IMG/VR virus record: IMGVR_UViG_3300032083_002615
Span: 1 to 64,000 of that record
DNA length: 64,000 nucleotides
Reading direction: 5' to 3' (one strand)
DNA from: a virus
In this document: positions 2,680 through 62,914 of the stretch, in pieces
How positions within the stretch are numbered: the first letter of the stretch is position 1
Layout of the letters: every line of letters begins with the position of its first letter
The notes under the pieces: generated by a model
Told to the model about the DNA's origin: nothing
What the model saw: only the letters and a program-made list of their open reading frames with translations
Databases searched by the model: none
Position numbers and translations under genes: made by a program

Positions 2680-3537
2680 ATGAAGAAACTAAGTATGAAG
2701 ACTCTAATCACCTTATCAATTGCCTGTTTGGGATTGTTTGGTATTGTTAGAGCTGACGAAGTAGTTACAGAGACTACACAACCTGTCGTGTCTGTGACTG
2801 GTGAATTAAGCACGGACATTACTTTCGGTGACGCTACTACATTTGCTAGCCCTTATACAGGACTAACATTTAGTGGTGATGGATGGGTTGTAAGTACAAA
2901 TCTATCAGATGGTATGGTTCATATCGAAGAAGCGAAATATTCGTGGATGGTCGTAGACGGTATGACTTTAACATTTGGTAGTCAAGCAGAACCTTATGGA
3001 TTAGCGTGGGGCTTACATAGACCATCTAACAACTGGTTTGTTTCAACTCCAAGAGACCATAGTGTTACGAATGGTATCGGATTTGGATTGAACAAATTTG
3101 GTGTTGGTGCTAATATGTTTTGGGGAGGAGATTCAATGAATGAAGAGGATGAAGCAGAACTTTATTGGGCTGGTAGATTTTCTTATGGATTGAATTTGCT
3201 TGGGATAGATTCTAATGTAGGACTATCGTTAAATAGTAACGAAGCTCAACTAATAGATGTTAGTGCAGGTAATGATTTGTTCACTACATCTTTTGAGTAT
3301 GATTTGTCAGAAGAGGCAGATGGTGCGTATTGGTTGAGGGGTGTTGTTACACCACCTCAAGCTCAAGGTGCTTTCCTTCTTATCGGGTTGAACTCCGATG
3401 AAGTTGTGACATATGGAGTTGGGTACAAATGCTCGGACAATATGAAAGTTGTTTCCGAGTTCACATCAGGTATGAAAGATGCTGATGGTAATGAGGTAAC
3501 GAATGACTTTTCTATTAGAGCAAGTTATTCATTCTAA
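2680..3537 (+). CDS. outer-membrane porin-like beta-barrel protein
   Basis: The 285-residue product begins with a signal peptide (KKLSMKTLITLSIACLGLF, likely cleaved after VRA-D near residue 25). It continues as alternating amphipathic strands rich in Gly, Trp, Tyr and Asn and ends in a C-terminal Phe (RASYSF), the classic signature recognised by the BAM outer-membrane insertion machinery. The length suits a 12-16 strand barrel. AGGGAG with about 7-base spacing fixes the start at 2680. It is preceded by a long structured leader and followed closely by a small membrane protein gene. Phage porins are known in lambdoid phages (Lc/Nmp), where they alter host surface and phage adsorption. A similar role, or nutrient uptake during infection, is inferred. 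Precise family not identified. Confidence 0.72.
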   Translation: MKKLSMKTLITLSIACLGLFGIVRADEVVTETTQPVVSVTGELSTDITFGDATTFASPYTGLTFSGDGWVVSTNLSDGMVHIEEAKYSWMVVDGMTLTFGSQAEPYGLAWGLHRPSNNWFVSTPRDHSVTNGIGFGLNKFGVGANMFWGGDSMNEEDEAELYWAGRFSYGLNLLGIDSNVGLSLNSNEAQLIDVSAGNDLFTTSFEYDLSEEADGAYWLRGVVTPPQAQGAFLLIGLNSDEVVTYGVGYKCSDNMKVVSEFTSGMKDADGNEVTNDFSIRASYSF

Positions 3538-4852: not shown

Positions 4853-5350
4853 ATGATTAAAACATCTTATGCGACATTTTTGTCTGCAATATGTATGATA
4901 TTTTTAACTTGGTCTTTTACAAAATTTACTGAAAAGACAAGAGAAGAAAACAAAATATTGAAAGAAAGAATTAGTGAATTGGAAACCCAATACACAAATA
5001 AAATAGCCTATCAGGTTACTGTAACCACTTATAATCCAACCATACATCAATGTGATGATACACCACATATAACAGCTGATGGTACACATTTCAAAACTTG
5101 GAGAGCATCTTCATATCGTTATGTTGCTTTATCAAGAGACTTGTTATCTCGTTGGGGTGGTCCATTTAATTATGGGGATTATATTGTGATTGAAGGAGCT
5201 GGTGATAGGGATGGGGTTTATCAAGTTAGAGATACGATGAATCCAAAATGGACAAATAGAGTTGATATACTTACCACTAATGATAGATTCAAATATGATA
5301 ATGTTGTTATGTATAAGTATGTTGATGAGTTAATAGTAGTTAATCAATAG
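4853..5350 (+). CDS. membrane-anchored 3D-domain (double-psi beta-barrel) protein
   Basis: An N-terminal membrane anchor (about residues 6-24) is followed by a short coiled coil (REENKILKERISELETQ) and then a 3D domain at about residues 55-145. The hallmark conserved aspartates appear in HITADGTHF, GAGDRDGVYQVRDTM and RVDILTTNDR. 3D/RlpA/MltA-type double-psi barrels bind or cleave peptidoglycan glycan strands. The anchored form in the periplasm suggests cell-wall modification during infection or lysis. GGAGAG upstream fixes the start. It is first in an operon with a small Lys-rich protein and a multi-span membrane protein. Catalysis cannot be proven from sequence. Confidence 0.75.
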   Translation: MIKTSYATFLSAICMIFLTWSFTKFTEKTREENKILKERISELETQYTNKIAYQVTVTTYNPTIHQCDDTPHITADGTHFKTWRASSYRYVALSRDLLSRWGGPFNYGDYIVIEGAGDRDGVYQVRDTMNPKWTNRVDILTTNDRFKYDNVVMYKYVDELIVVNQ

Positions 5351-50749: not shown

Positions 50750-51514
50750 GTGGTTAAATTAAAACAATTATTAGAAGAAGGTGTGTTTGATAAAGGTATC
50801 TTGAAAGCCGTTTTTATGGCTGGAGGACCTGGTTCTGGTAAATCCTATGTAGCTGGTGAATTATTCGGTATTCCTAAAAAAATCAATGTATCGGTTAGTG
50901 GATTGAAAACCATTAATTCAGATACAGAGTTTGAATTTTTATTAAAGAAATATGGATTTGCAACTTATGGAACAGGTAAATTAGATATTGATAAATGGCC
51001 TGATGAAGTGTTTGATGCTATCGCTGGTGGTGATGAAGATTCAGAAACAATGACAGTTAGAAAGAAAGCCAAGTTAATGACTGCTGATAGAAAAAAACAA
51101 TACATGACAGGTAGACTTGGAATGATTATTGATGGAACTGGTCATAATTATGCAAAACTAAGAAAAGAAAAAGAAAAATTAGAAAAGATGGGATATGATT
51201 GTTATATGGTTTTTGTCAATACATCATTAGAGGTTGCGAAACAAAGAAATCAAGAAAGAGAAAGAAGATTACCAGAAGACATATTGGTAAAATCTTGGAA
51301 AGATGTACAGAATAATCTTGGTAAATTTCAATCTTTGTTTGGTAGTAATTTTGTAATTGTAGATAATTCAAAGTTTTTAAAACCAAAAGAAGCTCAAGCT
51401 AAATTTGGAAGATTGACTAAAAAATATATAGATAAATTTATAAAGAGACCTATTAGAAATGTAATTGGAAAAAAATGGGTTCAACATAATTTGATTTTAA
51501 AAGGTAAGAAATAG
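50750..51514 (+). CDS. P-loop kinase (zeta-toxin/polynucleotide-kinase-like) with head-leader-like N-terminus
   Basis: GTG start; GGAGA lies upstream. The first 10 residues (MVKLKQLLEE) form a basic helix ending in L-E-E, matching the (I/L)xE cleavage rule of the T4 prohead protease. The following GVFDKGILKAVFMAGGPGSGKS contains the Walker A (25-32). Later motifs fit the zeta-toxin/PNK kinase fold: a Walker B-like IIDGTGHNY (about 126-134), an Arg-rich lid AKQRNQERERRLP (about 164-176), and FVIVDNS near the end. Family members phosphorylate nucleotides, UDP-GlcNAc or polynucleotide 5' ends; the substrate is not shown here. If packaged, it would enter the host with DNA. Confidence 0.72.
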   Translation: MVKLKQLLEEGVFDKGILKAVFMAGGPGSGKSYVAGELFGIPKKINVSVSGLKTINSDTEFEFLLKKYGFATYGTGKLDIDKWPDEVFDAIAGGDEDSETMTVRKKAKLMTADRKKQYMTGRLGMIIDGTGHNYAKLRKEKEKLEKMGYDCYMVFVNTSLEVAKQRNQERERRLPEDILVKSWKDVQNNLGKFQSLFGSNFVIVDNSKFLKPKEAQAKFGRLTKKYIDKFIKRPIRNVIGKKWVQHNLILKGKK

Positions 51515-51561: not shown

Positions 51562-51978
51562 ATGGAAAACGAAATCCAAAATCAGGTTTCATTAATTCTC
51601 GGTGAATACGGGTGGTTATTTATAGTTGGTATTTTAACATTACTCTTCCGTTCTACAATTGAAAAACTTGTAGCTGGATTGATGATTTTTATGGGTAATG
51701 ATTACAATGAAGACGATGTTGTAGAGGTAGATGGAAAACCAGGACGAATTGTTCGTTGTGGTGTGTGGAGTACAACATTCTTTACTTATGATGTAGTGGA
51801 TGGTATTATCGTAGGCGGAAGTAAATTAGTAATTCAGAATGACAAACTGAAAGACATTAAAATAGAAAAACCTTTACCACTTTTGGATTTGTCAAAATAT
51901 AAAGTGGATACTTCTTGTGTTGATTTATTAACAGAGTTAACAAGAGTTGTTAAGAAACACGAGAACAACATACAATAG
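51562..51978 (+). CDS. minimal MscS-like membrane protein
   Basis: One membrane span (about 14-30, EYGWLFIVGILTLLF) is followed by a pore-helix-like stretch (EKLVAGLMIFMGNDYNEDD) and then a small beta domain with VVEVDGKPGRIVRCGVWSTT and VIQNDKLKDI. The combination of last-span plus beta domain is the MscS core, in which the domain has the pattern GDxVxVxGxxGxV...NxxL. Canonical MscS channels have three spans and an extra C-terminal domain; this 138-residue protein keeps only the core. It is the first of six consecutive envelope proteins. It may open a path for ions or alter membrane tension during infection. Channel function is inferred. Confidence 0.6.
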   Translation: MENEIQNQVSLILGEYGWLFIVGILTLLFRSTIEKLVAGLMIFMGNDYNEDDVVEVDGKPGRIVRCGVWSTTFFTYDVVDGIIVGGSKLVIQNDKLKDIKIEKPLPLLDLSKYKVDTSCVDLLTELTRVVKKHENNIQ

Positions 51979-51988
51979 GAGAAAGTAA

Positions 51989-53077
51989 ATGAAAAAATTA
52001 CTATCTATATTATTAACAACAGCTATCTTATTTGCTAATGAAGGTAGTAATTACTTTGTAGATAACTTTTTAAAGTATTCTACATTCTATACAAGTGTAA
52101 GTTTAAATTCACCATTTGAACCAAAACAAAAATTTGACTTCAATCAAGACTTGGGAACATTTGTTGAAACAACAGAAGAAGTTGAGGGTTCATACAATGT
52201 TTCATTTGGTATAAGAAAACTTGCAAGGTTTAAATATCAAGCCAAAGGTAAGAACTTTTACGATGGTTCAGAAAAGAACTTATCAGATGTGGCTACAATT
52301 GGTAATGTGAGTGGTTGGGAATACTTGGTTAAGTACTCAGCTATTCGTTCTTTTGGTGAAGAGTTTGTAGATACAGAATCTTGGGTTAGATACTTAGGTG
52401 ATAACTTTGTAATTAAAGGAACTTATGCTAACTTTGGATTAGAAGATTTAGAGTTTGGACAATTAGATGTTAGGTATAGAAAACCACTTGGAACAAGTTG
52501 GAACTTCACTGCAGGTGGTAACTTTAGAGGACACCCAGCATATGGATTGTTTCCATTTAATGATTGGTTACAAGGTTCACAAGGACAATGGTGGACATTA
52601 GCTTATGAGTATGGATATGATGATGAGTATTGGTTTGATGATTTAAACGACAATGGTGTTCAAGACCCTGGTGAGTTTGGTAGTTATGAATGGTATAATG
52701 AAGATGGTGAATTAATTGCAGAAACCGATGATGAGTTTTATGAATACTATTATGGTGATATAATAAATCTTTACAATGAAGAAGAAGTTGATAAACTTGG
52801 TTGGCAATATGAGGCTTCATTTGTTATTGGTGTTGATTATTATTTATACAATAAACAATATTGGGTTCATGGTTGGGCTTCAATACTACCAATAAGTAAA
52901 GGACTTACGGATTATTCTTTCGTTTATGAAAGTGGTGATATAGATTTTGATATAGGTGTAGTGGCTGGATACAAATTTGATAAAAGTTTTGGTGTATTTG
53001 GTGAAGGAAGATATTTAAGATATTGGAGTATTGATTCCTATGAATTAAAAGTAGGATTGAATTACACAGTATTTTAG
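51989..53077 (+). CDS. outer-membrane beta-barrel protein with EF-hand-like loop
   Basis: A signal peptide (KKLLSILLTTAILFA) is followed by alternating strands (VSFGIRKLARFKYQ, FVIKGTYANFGLEDL) and a final strand ending in Phe (LKVGLNYTVF), the outer-membrane insertion signature. Residues 218-229 are D-L-N-D-N-G-V-Q-D-P-G-E, an EF-hand/dockerin-type calcium loop inside an acidic, Tyr-rich extracellular insertion (about 210-265). Such loops are common in secreted and outer-membrane proteins of marine Bacteroidota and Marinimicrobia. AGGAGA overlaps the previous stop. Probably displayed on the cell surface late in infection; precise family unknown. Confidence 0.72.
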   Translation: MKKLLSILLTTAILFANEGSNYFVDNFLKYSTFYTSVSLNSPFEPKQKFDFNQDLGTFVETTEEVEGSYNVSFGIRKLARFKYQAKGKNFYDGSEKNLSDVATIGNVSGWEYLVKYSAIRSFGEEFVDTESWVRYLGDNFVIKGTYANFGLEDLEFGQLDVRYRKPLGTSWNFTAGGNFRGHPAYGLFPFNDWLQGSQGQWWTLAYEYGYDDEYWFDDLNDNGVQDPGEFGSYEWYNEDGELIAETDDEFYEYYYGDIINLYNEEEVDKLGWQYEASFVIGVDYYLYNKQYWVHGWASILPISKGLTDYSFVYESGDIDFDIGVVAGYKFDKSFGVFGEGRYLRYWSIDSYELKVGLNYTVF

Positions 53078-53086
53078 GAGTTATAG

Positions 53087-53758
53087 ATGAAAATAGGTGA
53101 AATATTAGTTCAAAAAGGATATGTAACACAACAACAATTAGATGGTGTGTTGGCTGTTAAAGGTGATGACGCACAAGTAGGACAAGTTTTAATCCAATGG
53201 GGATTATTAACACAAGAGCAGTTGATGGAAGCGTTGGACATACAAGCTCCCCCACCTCCACCGCCTCCTCCACCTCCACCACCAGTTCAACCACAACAAC
53301 CAATGTATCAACAACCACCTGTTGCTCCACCTCCAAGTGCACCAGATTTGACAATGGACAACTTACAAACATCAAAGTTTAACATTGATTTGAAAACTAT
53401 GATTTACATTGGTTCAATATTGTTTTCAGCTGTAACGATGTATTTTACATTTATGGGTGAGTTAGATGCTAGATTTGGAGCATTAGAGGATGGTGACAAT
53501 ACAATGATGGTTGATATGGACAAAAGATTAACAGCATTGGAAACAAACATTGATAAAAGGGTAACAGAATTAGAAAACAAATTCACACCAATTGGTGATG
53601 GGGTTTATGCTGTAGACCCTAATTCATCTTGGCCACCATCTCGTGGTGAGTATAAGATGAAAGATGAAATGTCAAGAAATAAAATTATGGCTTTAGAAAA
53701 TGAAATAGATAGATTAGAAAAAACTATCGAAAAGTTAGAAGATAAGTTAGATAAGTAG
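53087..53758 (+). CDS. MshEN-like domain, poly-proline, single-span and coiled-coil protein
   Basis: Residues 2-25 and 30-51 are two copies of the MshEN/GspE-N half-motif (KIGEILVQKGYVTQQQL and QVGQVLIQWGLLTQEQL). In MshE the pair binds cyclic di-GMP; in type II/IV ATPases it binds partners. A run of 12 prolines (55-66) and a Pro/Gln-rich linker follow, then a membrane span (about 103-123) and a C-terminal coiled coil (about 145-223). The topology suggests a cytoplasmic sensor linked to a periplasmic rod. No ATPase domain is present. Whether c-di-GMP is bound depends on residues I cannot confirm. It stands inside the envelope operon. Confidence 0.62.
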   Translation: MKIGEILVQKGYVTQQQLDGVLAVKGDDAQVGQVLIQWGLLTQEQLMEALDIQAPPPPPPPPPPPPVQPQQPMYQQPPVAPPPSAPDLTMDNLQTSKFNIDLKTMIYIGSILFSAVTMYFTFMGELDARFGALEDGDNTMMVDMDKRLTALETNIDKRVTELENKFTPIGDGVYAVDPNSSWPPSRGEYKMKDEMSRNKIMALENEIDRLEKTIEKLEDKLDK

Positions 53759-53767
53759 GAGAGGGTT

Positions 53768-54142
53768 ATGTTTAAAAAATTATTTATATTTGGTTTAATG
53801 ATTACATCACTCTTTGGTGTAAGAGAATTAACAGATGAGAATTTCAAGAAAGCAACCAATAGAGGTTTAGTGGCCGTTGAGTTTTGGGCTACTTGGAATG
53901 AAGTGAATAAAGTTACAGCAATTGATGAATGGGATTCATTTGATGCGAAAGTATATAGATTGAACATTGATAATTTTCCAAAAATTCAAGCTGACAATAA
54001 TGTAGTAATACTTCCCACTATAATCTTTTTTGATGAAGGTGAAGAAGTACAACGACTTCAAGGTGATATGACTTTTACCTTAAAGACAACAACAGATGAA
54101 CTTGACGAAGTAGTTGAGGAAATACTCGGAAATAAGTTTTAG
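53768..54142 (+). CDS. exported thioredoxin-fold protein lacking CxxC
   Basis: The N-terminus is a signal peptide or anchor (FKKLFIFGLMITSLFG). The remainder has the thioredoxin layout: VAVEFWATWNEVNK (34-48), NIDNFPKIQADNNVVI, LPTIIFFDEGEEVQRLQGD. The active-site WCxxC is replaced by W43-N-E-V-N47, so both redox cysteines are gone while the cis-proline (LPT) remains. It cannot be an oxidoreductase and may serve as a chaperone or a structural adaptor in the periplasm. AGGAG overlaps the previous stop. The fold call is confident; the role is inferred. Confidence 0.7.
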   Translation: MFKKLFIFGLMITSLFGVRELTDENFKKATNRGLVAVEFWATWNEVNKVTAIDEWDSFDAKVYRLNIDNFPKIQADNNVVILPTIIFFDEGEEVQRLQGDMTFTLKTTTDELDEVVEEILGNKF

Positions 54143-54153
54143 GAGGAAATGAA

Positions 54154-55092
54154 ATGAATAAATTATTAATGTATTTAATGAGTTTTATGTTATTATTCAC
54201 AATCAGTTGTGATGGTTCAAGTCCAACATCACCTGATGATGGTGGTAATGATGACGAACCTGTATTACTTGGTTGTGAAGCAGCTAATCTATATGATTGG
54301 AATAGTGTAGAGTTTGAATCATCACTTGATGCAGGAGCAACAACTTGGTTAGCTTTTGATTTAAGTGAAACAACATTGTTCTCAATTAATTTAAATCAAC
54401 CTGGTTTTCATTGTGCAATATTTGAAGCCTGTGATGGTGAGGTAGGAGCTCCACCACCATTGTATTCATTTATGTCAAATGGAAATGGACAAGAGGTTGG
54501 TATTGTAACAGAAGGAATTTATTATTTAGAAATAAAAAACACAAGACCTGGTAGATTAGATTTTGAATTTAGTATTCAATTGGATGATATAGTTTATGGT
54601 TGTATGAATGATGATGCTTTGAATTATGATGATACGGCTAATGTTGATGATGGTAGTTGTACATTTAACGATTGTAATACACAATATTATTTAGATAACT
54701 ATGGTGAGATGGTATTGGATTGTGATGGTAATTGTGCACCAATTAGTTGGATAGCAGATGGATTCTGTGATGATGGAGCTTATGGTATTTATGATGAAGA
54801 AGGAAATGTAGTTCCTATTAATCTATGGTGTGAAGAGTTTAACTTTGACGAAGGTGATTGTGAAGTCATACCTGGTGAGTGTTCACCTGGATTGATTGAA
54901 GATTGTAATGGTATATGTGCACCTGAACAATGGTTGGGTGATGGTTTCTGTGATGATGGTTCATATTCTTATAATGGAAATCCAATATTCTTTAATTGTG
55001 AAGAATTTAACAATGATGAAGGAGATTGTGATGTTATGGGGAGGACAGAAACAAGACCATATCCAAACAACAAAATTAAAATTAACGAATAG
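54154..55092 (+). CDS. lipoprotein with Cys-rich and Notch-like (LNR) repeats
   Basis: A lipobox (FTIS-C19) follows a 15-residue hydrophobic stretch, so the protein is probably lipid-anchored. A beta domain (about 40-148) resembles sugar-binding or pre-peptidase-type domains. Then GCMNDDALNYDDTANVDDGSC and two repeats of Asp-rich, Cys-rich LNR type follow (DGFCDDGAYG through NFDEGDC, and DGFCDDGSYSY through NNDEGDC). Both features are characteristic of surface proteins from marine Bacteroidota/Marinimicrobia and are very unusual for phages. This suggests acquisition from such a host. A ligand-binding or surface-shielding role is inferred. Confidence 0.7.
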   Translation: MNKLLMYLMSFMLLFTISCDGSSPTSPDDGGNDDEPVLLGCEAANLYDWNSVEFESSLDAGATTWLAFDLSETTLFSINLNQPGFHCAIFEACDGEVGAPPPLYSFMSNGNGQEVGIVTEGIYYLEIKNTRPGRLDFEFSIQLDDIVYGCMNDDALNYDDTANVDDGSCTFNDCNTQYYLDNYGEMVLDCDGNCAPISWIADGFCDDGAYGIYDEEGNVVPINLWCEEFNFDEGDCEVIPGECSPGLIEDCNGICAPEQWLGDGFCDDGSYSYNGNPIFFNCEEFNNDEGDCDVMGRTETRPYPNNKIKINE

Positions 55093-55102
55093 TAGGAGAT
55101 AA

Positions 55103-55663
55103 ATGTTAAAAGAGTTATTGCTAGCAACAATTGTATCAACATCACTAAGTGTAAGAACACCAAATGATGTAGAAAAAGAATTAGATTATGAGTTTTCTGT
55201 TAAAATTGAGAACACAAATAAAAATTTTCAATATTTATTAAAAAGAGATTGGGAAAGAGAATTAGGTGAAAAATACATAGATGATGTGTTTAAATTTTCA
55301 CACACGATTAATGATTTTATTTATTATGGTGTGGATTATGTGAACAAAGAATCAAAAGATATTTTTTACACAACTTATAACATTGGTATTGATGATAACG
55401 GATGGAAGTTTGGTTTATCAATAAAAGATAATGATAAGTTGGCTAGTTTAGGATACAATAAAAAATTAAAAAAAGATGATTTGGAATACAATGTAGGATT
55501 GTCTTTTAAATCTGATTTGGGTGAGAACAATATCATCAATCTAAAATCAGAAGTAAAGAAATGGCTAACAGAAAAGATTAATATATTTGGTTTATATAAA
55601 CATGAGTATTACAATAAACAAGAAGACTTTCAATTTAAAGTCGGTTTAGGAGTTAAACTATGA
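55103..55663 (+). CDS. small exported beta-barrel-like protein
   Basis: A short N-terminal hydrophobic segment (LKELLLATIVSTSLSV) suggests export. The remainder is alternating charged/hydrophobic strands (FSVKIENTNKNFQYLLKRD, FYTTYNIGIDDNGWKFGLSI, YNVGLSFKSDLG, FQFKVGLGVKL), typical of an outer-membrane barrel of about 8 strands, ending in Leu instead of Phe. AGGAGA sits inside the spacer. The last bases overlap the next start (ATGA). It closes the six-gene envelope cassette. Confidence 0.58.
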   Translation: MLKELLLATIVSTSLSVRTPNDVEKELDYEFSVKIENTNKNFQYLLKRDWERELGEKYIDDVFKFSHTINDFIYYGVDYVNKESKDIFYTTYNIGIDDNGWKFGLSIKDNDKLASLGYNKKLKKDDLEYNVGLSFKSDLGENNIINLKSEVKKWLTEKINIFGLYKHEYYNKQEDFQFKVGLGVKL

Positions 55664-61804: not shown

Positions 61805-62110
61805 ATGTTTAGTAAAATAAAAAAATATGTTATAGGATTTTTTGTTTTGTGTGGTGGAATCCTTTTTGCATTTCTATCTGGTAAAAGCGCAGGTAGAAAA
61901 GATGAGAAAGTTAAAGGATTGAAAAAACAGTCTAAAAAAGTTTCTGATATATTAAAGGATAAAGAGAAGTCACAGAAAGCAATTAAAAAGAGTTTAAAAA
62001 GTAAGAAAAAGGCTCTTGAAGACATCAAAAAGAAAAAATATAAAAAAAAGAAAGTCGCTAAAAAAGAAGCAGAGGACTTTTTAAAAAACTTTAGCAAGGA
62101 GAAAAAATAA
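61805..62110 (+). CDS. single-span protein with Lys-rich coiled coil
   Basis: An N-terminal membrane span (about 8-24, VIGFFVLCGGILFAFL) follows MFSKIKKY. The remaining 75 residues are an extremely lysine-rich helix (KGLKKQSKKVSDILKDKEK, KKSLKSKKKALEDIKKKKYK). Inner-membrane anchor plus periplasmic or cytoplasmic coiled coil fits an i-spanin-like lysis protein, but the high lysine content also fits membrane-DNA tethering. The stop overlaps the next start (TAATG). Confidence 0.55.
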   Translation: MFSKIKKYVIGFFVLCGGILFAFLSGKSAGRKDEKVKGLKKQSKKVSDILKDKEKSQKAIKKSLKSKKKALEDIKKKKYKKKKVAKKEAEDFLKNFSKEKK

Positions 62111-62568
62111 TGCCACACGAACCAGGACATAATGGAAATACAACTCAAGCTTCTTATAGAATAGTTGGTACTGATAGAACTTATAGTGGATTGGTGGTTA
62201 TGGTAGGTGGACATCCATATACAACAGATGGAGGGACATTACAAGGAAATTCACAACAACTTGAATTAGTAGGAAATAATAACACATCACAAACTCAAAC
62301 ACAAAATGATAATCCTGTCACAAGAACTTTTATTTCAAGAGTTCTTTATTATAGACAAGATGGGACAACTGTTCCAGTAGGAACTGAAATGCACGAACAC
62401 GCCAATGGAACAATTATGTTAGGGCACGACCCTGAAAATATGGGTGAGATTGTTACAAGAACTTCAACTCAAAGAACTCAAACTCAAAGAACTCAAACTC
62501 AAAGAACTAGAACATCGACTGGTAGAATGGGTGGAGGAAGAACAGGTGGAGGTAGAAGTGGTTACTAA
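62110..62568 (+). CDS. hypothetical protein with Thr/Gln/Arg repeats
   Basis: The N-terminal part (PHEPGHNG, SYRIVGTDRTYSGLVVMVGG) is a beta unit seen in related phages. The centre (RTFISRVLYYRQDGTTVPVG, EMHEHANGTIMLGH) is beta-rich. The C-terminus is a repeat region TQRTQTQRTQTQRT followed by Gly/Arg (GRMGGGRTGGGRSGY). A basic Gly/Arg tail suggests nucleic-acid or partner binding. It overlaps the next gene by 11 bases. Confidence 0.6.
   Translation: MPHEPGHNGNTTQASYRIVGTDRTYSGLVVMVGGHPYTTDGGTLQGNSQQLELVGNNNTSQTQTQNDNPVTRTFISRVLYYRQDGTTVPVGTEMHEHANGTIMLGHDPENMGEIVTRTSTQRTQTQRTQTQRTRTSTGRMGGGRTGGGRSGY
62466..62509 (+). repeat. 15-bp tandem repeat encoding TQRTQ
   Basis: AACTCAAAGAACTCA is repeated at 62466-62480 and 62481-62495 and partly to 62509. 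It encodes the Thr/Gln/Arg repeat. Confidence 0.85.
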
Positions 62569-62914
62569 ATTACTATTGATATTATTACTATCTTTTTCAT
62601 TCACACAAGACATTTGTGAAGGAACTTGTTTTTCAGAAGAGGAAGTACAGAATATGTATAATAACATAAAAGCTCTTGAATTTAAAAGAGAAACTTGTGA
62701 AAGTGCTTATTTGAATTTTGAAAGTCAATTGGAAGAATGTGATGAATATATAGATGAATGTGATGAACAAGCACAACTGTATAAAGAACAAATTAAAATT
62801 AAAGATGAAATGATAAAAACAATAAAACCAAAATGGTATGAAAACAAATACCTTTGGTTCTTTGGTGGAGTTATATTTACAAGTGGTTCAGTATTTTTAG
62901 CAGGACAATTGTAA
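62558..62914 (+). CDS. exported or membrane protein with coiled coil, 118 aa
   Basis: GTG 62558 has GGAGG at 62548-62552. Translation gives a signal-like hydrophobic N-terminus (TKLLLILLLSFSFTQ), a Cys-containing helical body (CFSEEEVQNMYNNIKALEF, CDEYIDECDEQAQLYKEQ) and a C-terminal span (KYLWFFGGVIFTSGSVFLAG). The frame is open further upstream but those residues only read through the repeat of the previous gene, so 62558 is chosen. Two-ended membrane attachment with a coiled coil resembles a spanin-like lysis protein; unproven. The stop overlaps the terminase start (TAATG). Confidence 0.55.
   Translation: MVTKLLLILLLSFSFTQDICEGTCFSEEEVQNMYNNIKALEFKRETCESAYLNFESQLEECDEYIDECDEQAQLYKEQIKIKDEMIKTIKPKWYENKYLWFFGGVIFTSGSVFLAGQL

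Follow-up and report, generated by a model that had tools for sequence, protein, structure and literature searches.

The DNA considered here is a 64,000-nucleotide stretch (hereafter the window) covering positions 1 to 64,000 of the 69,451-base IMG/VR virus record IMGVR_UViG_3300032083_002615. Six consecutive open reading frames, designated A to F, lie within it and are listed in Table 1. They are separated by gaps of 10, 9, 9, 11 and 10 bases, and each is preceded by its own GGAG ahead of the start codon, as an earlier annotation made from the letters alone (the sequence-only reading) had described. That reading interpreted the six genes as a late, envelope-spanning cassette. The label ‘late’ was not borne out by the upstream sequence: no exact T4-type TATAAATA was found immediately upstream of A, and the search for a T4 late promoter ahead of A was negative. 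The possibility had also been raised that several of the six might prove to be virion structural proteins; none of them resembled such a protein in family searches. No described phage system with this combination of genes was found in the open-access literature on the lysis modules of marine crAss-like phages and on MscS, porins and prepilins encoded by phages, in agreement with the earlier statement that none was known.

Table 1. Genes of the six-gene block, in window coordinates, with their predicted features.
Gene	Position	Strand	Predicted features and distribution
A	51562-51978	+	Mini-MscS: one membrane span (pore-helix-like) and an MscS beta domain; conserved, separately mobile
B	51989-53077	+	Beta-barrel of the outer membrane with 12 predicted strands; charged residues at lumen-facing positions are invariant; core
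C	53087-53758	+	Cytoplasmic MshEN-type domain, poly-proline linker, span at about 105-123, periplasmic WPPSxxEY segment, coiled coil; core
D	53768-54142	+	Secreted thioredoxin fold, NxxN for CxxC, cis-proline retained; core
E	54154-55092	+	Cysteine-rich lipoprotein, two LNR-like segments (LNR, Lin-12/Notch repeat), one GCMNDDALNYDDTANVDDGSC repeat; clade-specific
F	55103-55663	+	Small barrel-like secreted protein; clade-specific

IMG/VR was scanned for relatives of the block, with A (61 loci), C (72 loci), B (at least 212 relatives, of which 80 were kept) and E (8) as queries. Their gene content resolves the block into three layers: a core of B, C and D, the gene A, which is conserved but independently scattered, and E and F, which belong to the clade of the window. 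The proposal of one six-gene unit was rejected on these grounds, and an envelope-spanning multi-gene module persists for B-C-D but not for all six genes together. Within the core, 80 B lineages could be tested after clustering at 90% identity, and C and D, separated by 0-58 bases, were present in 79 of them. Loci found through B alone, a set that is free of selection through C, contained both C and D in 35/36 lineages at 90% clustering and in 10/10 at 70%. The gene order B-C-D was kept in 130 of 137 loci. The protein distances of B, C and D were correlated over all lineages (Mantel r 0.87-0.90, P 0.001) and within groups (r 0.47-0.89, P 0.001 each), and this co-inheritance was maintained despite identities that drop to 28% for B and 15% for D. 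The content, order and co-inheritance of the three genes are thus direct observations, and show that B-C-D is conserved as a unit across dozens of lineages of marine phages, irrespective of what the unit does.

The genes that accompany B-C-D place it in two or more phage groups that are unrelated to each other, among them T4-type myoviruses and crAss-like phages, the latter with a short C. The window carries a baseplate gene, and its 168-kb relative (G002) has a terminase closest to that of Flavobacterium phage immuto (52%); the window was therefore assigned to the T4-type myoviruses. In the short-C set, the terminase is closest to those of crAss-like phages, and matches to PHROGs 6547 and 6681 were obtained for portal and terminase. 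L107, a small contig and the closest relative outside the clade of the window, has B-C-D alongside other capsid genes. The hosts are likely to be Bacteroidota or related bacteria, since Bacteroidota are the hosts of crAss-like phages (PMC10136315) and the T4-type terminase is consistent with this. The sole match to a cellular genome (L101) was a phage contig in a metagenome-assembled genome labelled Pelagibacter, and was not used as host evidence. Around the cassette, the window genes at 50750, 55660, 56053 and 57894 start with M(V/I)KLxxLLxE-like peptides. These resemble the capsid-targeting sequences of T4, which the gp21 protease cleaves.

B has a signal peptide and was modelled as a barrel with 12 long strands at moderate confidence (predicted local distance difference test, pLDDT, 58.8), which lends backing to its original label. 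The model aligned with EstA (VIA Z 17.1), KdgM (16.5), NanC, Tsx and OmpLA, in a list that constitutes a second look at Foldseek's own matches and in which many barrels tie at Z 12-17. Foldseek returned generic barrels only, and no specific barrel family is claimed. B resembles the named 12-strand outer-membrane barrels in predicted strand number and overall form, but the moderate-confidence model shares only about 10% identity with them, and searches of Pfam, PHROGs, NCBIfam and PADLOC with B gave no match; a single unnamed viral relative (30% identity) is present in BFVD. INPHARED contained no relative of A, B or C, and a search of it with D returned ordinary thioredoxins only. The residues of B that are near-invariant over 88 lineages include E111, R134, R162, R180, H182, H294, D321 and E339, and most of the invariant residues appear to face the lumen, as read by the author from the parity of the predicted strands.

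These features would suit an auxiliary metabolic function in which B, as a substrate-specific porin, supplies the infected cell with nutrients, D and C assist it in the periplasm and inner membrane, respectively, and A serves as an osmotic safety valve. Oligosaccharide porins (KdgM and NanC) and a nucleoside channel (Tsx) are among the best folds, invariant Arg, Lys, Glu and His occupy lumen-facing strand positions, and the window encodes a second, unrelated barrel-like protein at 2680-3537 on the plus strand. The latter has a signal peptide and an aromatic beta-signal at its end, is 83% identical in the 168-kb relative, and has no family match. However, resemblance of fold says nothing about function, and the barrels of autotransporters and lipases have similar scores; the unit is not accompanied by any transporter, binding protein or enzyme; and a porin leaves the linkage to holin and endolysin genes described below unexplained. 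A nutritional role is considered unlikely.

All C proteins share a membrane span, a segment resembling PPxRxEF/WPxSxxEY and a coiled coil. The crAss-like C proteins are 90-116 residues long, with the span near residues 17-36 followed by the coiled coil, and the C of the window has this same core after an extra N-terminal domain. The predicted architecture is of the N-in type, which would place the coiled coil in the periplasm. The extra domain matches the NCBIfam MshE-related c-di-GMP (cyclic di-GMP) motif NF053729 (7.1e-12, 44.9 bits against a cut-off of 38), and the C family profile matches PilF (7.6e-16) and MshE (1.4e-7) among PDB profiles, such that the MshEN label is supported, although Pfam MshEN itself gave no match. 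C shares this two-repeat helical domain with the pilus and secretion ATPases PilF, PilB and MshE, but has no ATPase, and its MshEN is instead fused to the span and coiled coil.

MshEN receptors for c-di-GMP have a conserved Arg and Gln in both of their 24-residue motifs (PMC5013675). The corresponding motifs of the window's C read K...K and Q...Q and lack the conserved Arg/Gln pattern, and across 70 long C proteins the first ligand-motif position is usually occupied by T, S or K; the residues for c-di-GMP therefore appear to be mostly lost. MshEN is also an N-terminal addition, absent from the crAss-like C proteins, which nonetheless retain their B and D partners. These observations weaken the suggestion that C is a sensor, and c-di-GMP sensing was rejected as the core function. 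They also bear on an alternative in which the unit targets the host type IV pilus or c-di-GMP signalling, with the MshEN of C mimicking the pilus motor and nearby phage prepilins remodelling or blocking the pilus. The profile and motif matches of C are in keeping with this idea, as are the N_methyl prepilins encoded in 14 of 26 A-carrying phage records, in many cases immediately downstream of D. The missing MshEN of the crAss-like proteins and the replacement of most key Arg and Gln residues are not, and no pilin was found in the clade of the window, its 168-kb relative included. Interference with pili or c-di-GMP signalling is judged very improbable, and prepilins were rejected as part of the window's system.

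Many T4-type relatives outside that clade have the unit flanked by prepilins, a Popeye-type cyclic-nucleotide protein and a TonB C-terminal protein. The prepilins, encoded by one to four genes and scoring above the N_methyl cut-off, lie by the homologues of A, B, C or D at L041 11519-13586, L056 8547-9683, L057 8543-9681 and L063 5366-7413. The Popeye protein (L041 10672-11319; also L056 7252, L116 and L131) has membrane spans and a cyclic-nucleotide-binding domain (8e-15, 2.5e-15), and also matches the ligand domain of Pycsar effectors (2e-12); it could sequester a defence nucleotide, and has no relative in INPHARED. The same phage neighbourhood includes L056 10894-11214, whose small, secreted product carries a TonB C-terminal domain (1.1e-11).

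The description of D as a thioredoxin without CxxC was upheld. The window's D matches Pfam Thioredoxin (9e-9) and has WATWNEVNK where WCxxC is expected. Among 100 distinct D sequences, none has a cysteine at either active-site position and all keep the cis-proline; NxxN stands in place of CxxC in 36/36 crAss-like D proteins and in 6 long-C D proteins. D thus shares the fold and cis-proline of thioredoxins but is secreted and has NxxN or another sequence at the CxxC position, a pattern that fits a binding scaffold and not a redox enzyme.

The neighbourhood of the unit was assessed in 22 crAss-like lineages with enough flanking sequence, genes being counted as near D when within 6 kb before or 4 kb after it. 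The typical order is B, C, D, a secreted gene, an M15 endolysin and a three-span holin. A family-verified holin (phrog_3427, 4.9e-27) was near D in 14/22 lineages, and in 8/22 an M15 endolysin (phrog_894, 4.5e-33) was present as well as the holin; counting a two-span holin-like gene with no family match, 19/22 had at least one such gene. Eight contigs of 55-88 kb each carry a single copy of phrog_3427, located 1.0-6.7 kb from D (with D placed by ranges from the scan with B). Among the long-C lineages, which are not crAss-like, the phrog_3427 holin followed D in 5/29, and in L107 an M15 endolysin begins 50 bases after D. Convincing small lipoproteins that might serve as o-spanins were found near the unit in 2/28 crAss-like lineages, with a control sensitivity of about 78%. 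A further possible lysis or cell-wall gene lies in the window at 4853-5350 (plus strand); its product is membrane-anchored, and the phrog_21574 domain (1.6e-12) in it resembles, on reading, a peptidoglycan domain of the 3D type.

A review of spanins has suggested that an outer-membrane protein could act as o-spanin, and lists phages of Bacteroides and Croceibacter that lack spanins (PMC6139136). The lysis neighbours, the resemblance of C to an i-spanin, the rarity of o-spanin lipoproteins and this suggestion together lead to the reading that B-C-D is an envelope-spanning arm of lysis, i.e., that it disrupts the outer membrane or controls its disruption. We put this forward tentatively, at a little short of an even chance. 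Control of lysis timing had been one of several roles proposed from the sequence, and among those roles lysis is the one that gained positive evidence, from the holin and endolysin neighbours.

Under the lysis-arm reading, B-C-D would act at the end of infection, on or in control of the outer membrane, after holin and endolysin. C would sit in the inner membrane and extend its coiled coil into the periplasm, as an i-spanin does, and B would occupy the outer-membrane place of the usual o-spanin lipoprotein. D would be a periplasmic binding adaptor, its substrate-side cis-proline kept, with no redox role. Once the peptidoglycan has been cut, the complex would be released, and B and C would draw the membranes together or open the outer membrane. 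In the clade of the window, A (as a minimal tension-type pore), E and F would be added accessory parts.

Two-component spanins (lambda Rz/Rz1 and T4 PseT.3/PseT.2) resemble C in having an inner-membrane protein with an N-terminal span and a periplasmic coiled coil, which in C are predicted, and resemble B-C-D in having an outer-membrane partner. Linkage to holin and endolysin, which is not required of spanins in T4-like phages, is mixed for B-C-D: it occurs in many crAss-like and a few other lineages but not in the clade of the window. The o-partner of a spanin is, however, a small lipoprotein encoded by an adjacent, overlapping or embedded gene, whereas the partner proposed here is a predicted barrel and not a lipoprotein. 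Unlike spanins, B-C-D nearly always includes a third, pseudo-thioredoxin gene, its C often carries a cytoplasmic MshEN, and it has no sequence match to spanin PHROGs. The more specific proposal, that B-C-D is an undescribed spanin-like disruption machine, with a 12-strand barrel as outer partner and a cysteine-free thioredoxin as bridge, common to unrelated phages of Bacteroidota-type hosts and accounting for part of the spanin-less phages, is possible but doubtful.

Several observations weigh against a role in lysis. No lysis gene adjoins the block in the clade of the window; the phrog_3427 holin is absent from the record and from the 168-kb relative, in which the endolysin is about 40 kb from the block; and in most long-C relatives prepilin, Popeye or tail genes adjoin the unit instead of lysis genes. 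The late genes of crAss-like phages cluster in any case, so nearness to lysis genes is weak evidence alone. A small window gene at 61805-62107 (plus strand) has weak matches to Rz-like spanin PHROGs (E 7e-4). The conserved charged lumen predicted for B resembles a channel or an enzyme more than a passive anchor. Finally, the contacts among B, C and D are inferred only, as are the timing, the membrane-disrupting step and the topology of C. The window also has a gene at 62444-62914 (plus strand) whose product has a signal peptide, a coiled coil and a C-terminal span; this gene and that at 61805-62107 are possible conventional spanin candidates.

The same lysis neighbourhood could also accompany a unit that controls the timing of lysis, as in lysis inhibition or a superinfection sensor at the envelope, with no part in outer-membrane rupture. 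In its favour, D looks like a pure binding module and C can carry a cytoplasmic ligand domain; against it, known antiholins and RI-type proteins showed no relation to the unit in sequence, and we regard this role as quite unlikely.

The accessory genes differ in their distribution. A matches the Pfam MscS domain PF00924 (MS_channel_2nd) above cut-off in the window (6e-5) and in 15/15 aligned relatives, in line with its MscS-like label, and shows a weak NCBIfam MscS alignment at 108-169; a PDB profile search with A gave no MscS match. At 138 residues with one predicted span, A lacks the three spans and C-terminal domain of MscS, which is a heptamer gated by tension: it aligns with the end of the pore helix and the beta domain, but has neither TM1-TM2 nor the C-terminal vestibule and exceeds the cut-off only for the beta-domain model. 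A is the most conserved of the proteins (63-70% identity between clades, against about 40% for B and about 27% for C). It adjoins B in some phages, and in many stands alone or on the other strand. In the window and in L008-L063, A is often beside a 73-residue two-span protein of no known family. The notion that A replaces the holin was dropped because G011 and G017 carry both A and a holin.

E is a 312-residue lipoprotein with a lipobox and 18 cysteines, and is not o-spanin-like. Its assignment as a lipoprotein stands, while the Notch repeats found no support in family models (no Pfam LNR match up to E 1 and no NCBIfam match), ‘LNR-like’ being a reading alone. Apart from one E-like match in the crAss-like locus L200, E was seen in the clade of the window only, as was F. 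The barrel-like character of F is judged by eye alone and its signal peptide is weak, and family searches (Pfam and NCBIfam included) gave no meaningful match.

In a further explanation, B-C-D, with A, E and F, would alter the surface of the infected cell and so prevent adsorption or injection by other phages, through superinfection exclusion or receptor masking, with E displayed on the surface. The combination of outer-membrane, lipoprotein and periplasmic parts suits this, as does a surface partner that differs by group: E in the clade of the window, another lipoprotein in the other long-C phages and a cysteine-rich secreted protein in the crAss-like phages. Against it, the exclusion proteins known so far are usually single small proteins, invariant residues lie inside B, and linkage to lysis genes is not predicted. 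Exclusion had been among the roles first suggested, and as a known defence system it found no support: no PADLOC model matched A-F at E 0.01. On balance this explanation is improbable.

If B-C-D does act in lysis, it would represent a novel form of outer-membrane disruption. A recognisable spanin is missing from many phages whose hosts have an outer membrane, and B-C-D would be a concrete candidate for the replacement of the lipoprotein by a barrel that was left open by the spanin review (PMC6139136). About 80 marine lineages, drawn from two or more unrelated groups of phages, carry the trio, and in many of them lysis genes lie next to it. Even if the lysis-arm reading is wrong, a strictly conserved, envelope-spanning trio whose B matches no curated family represents an unstudied way in which marine phages handle the envelope of their hosts.

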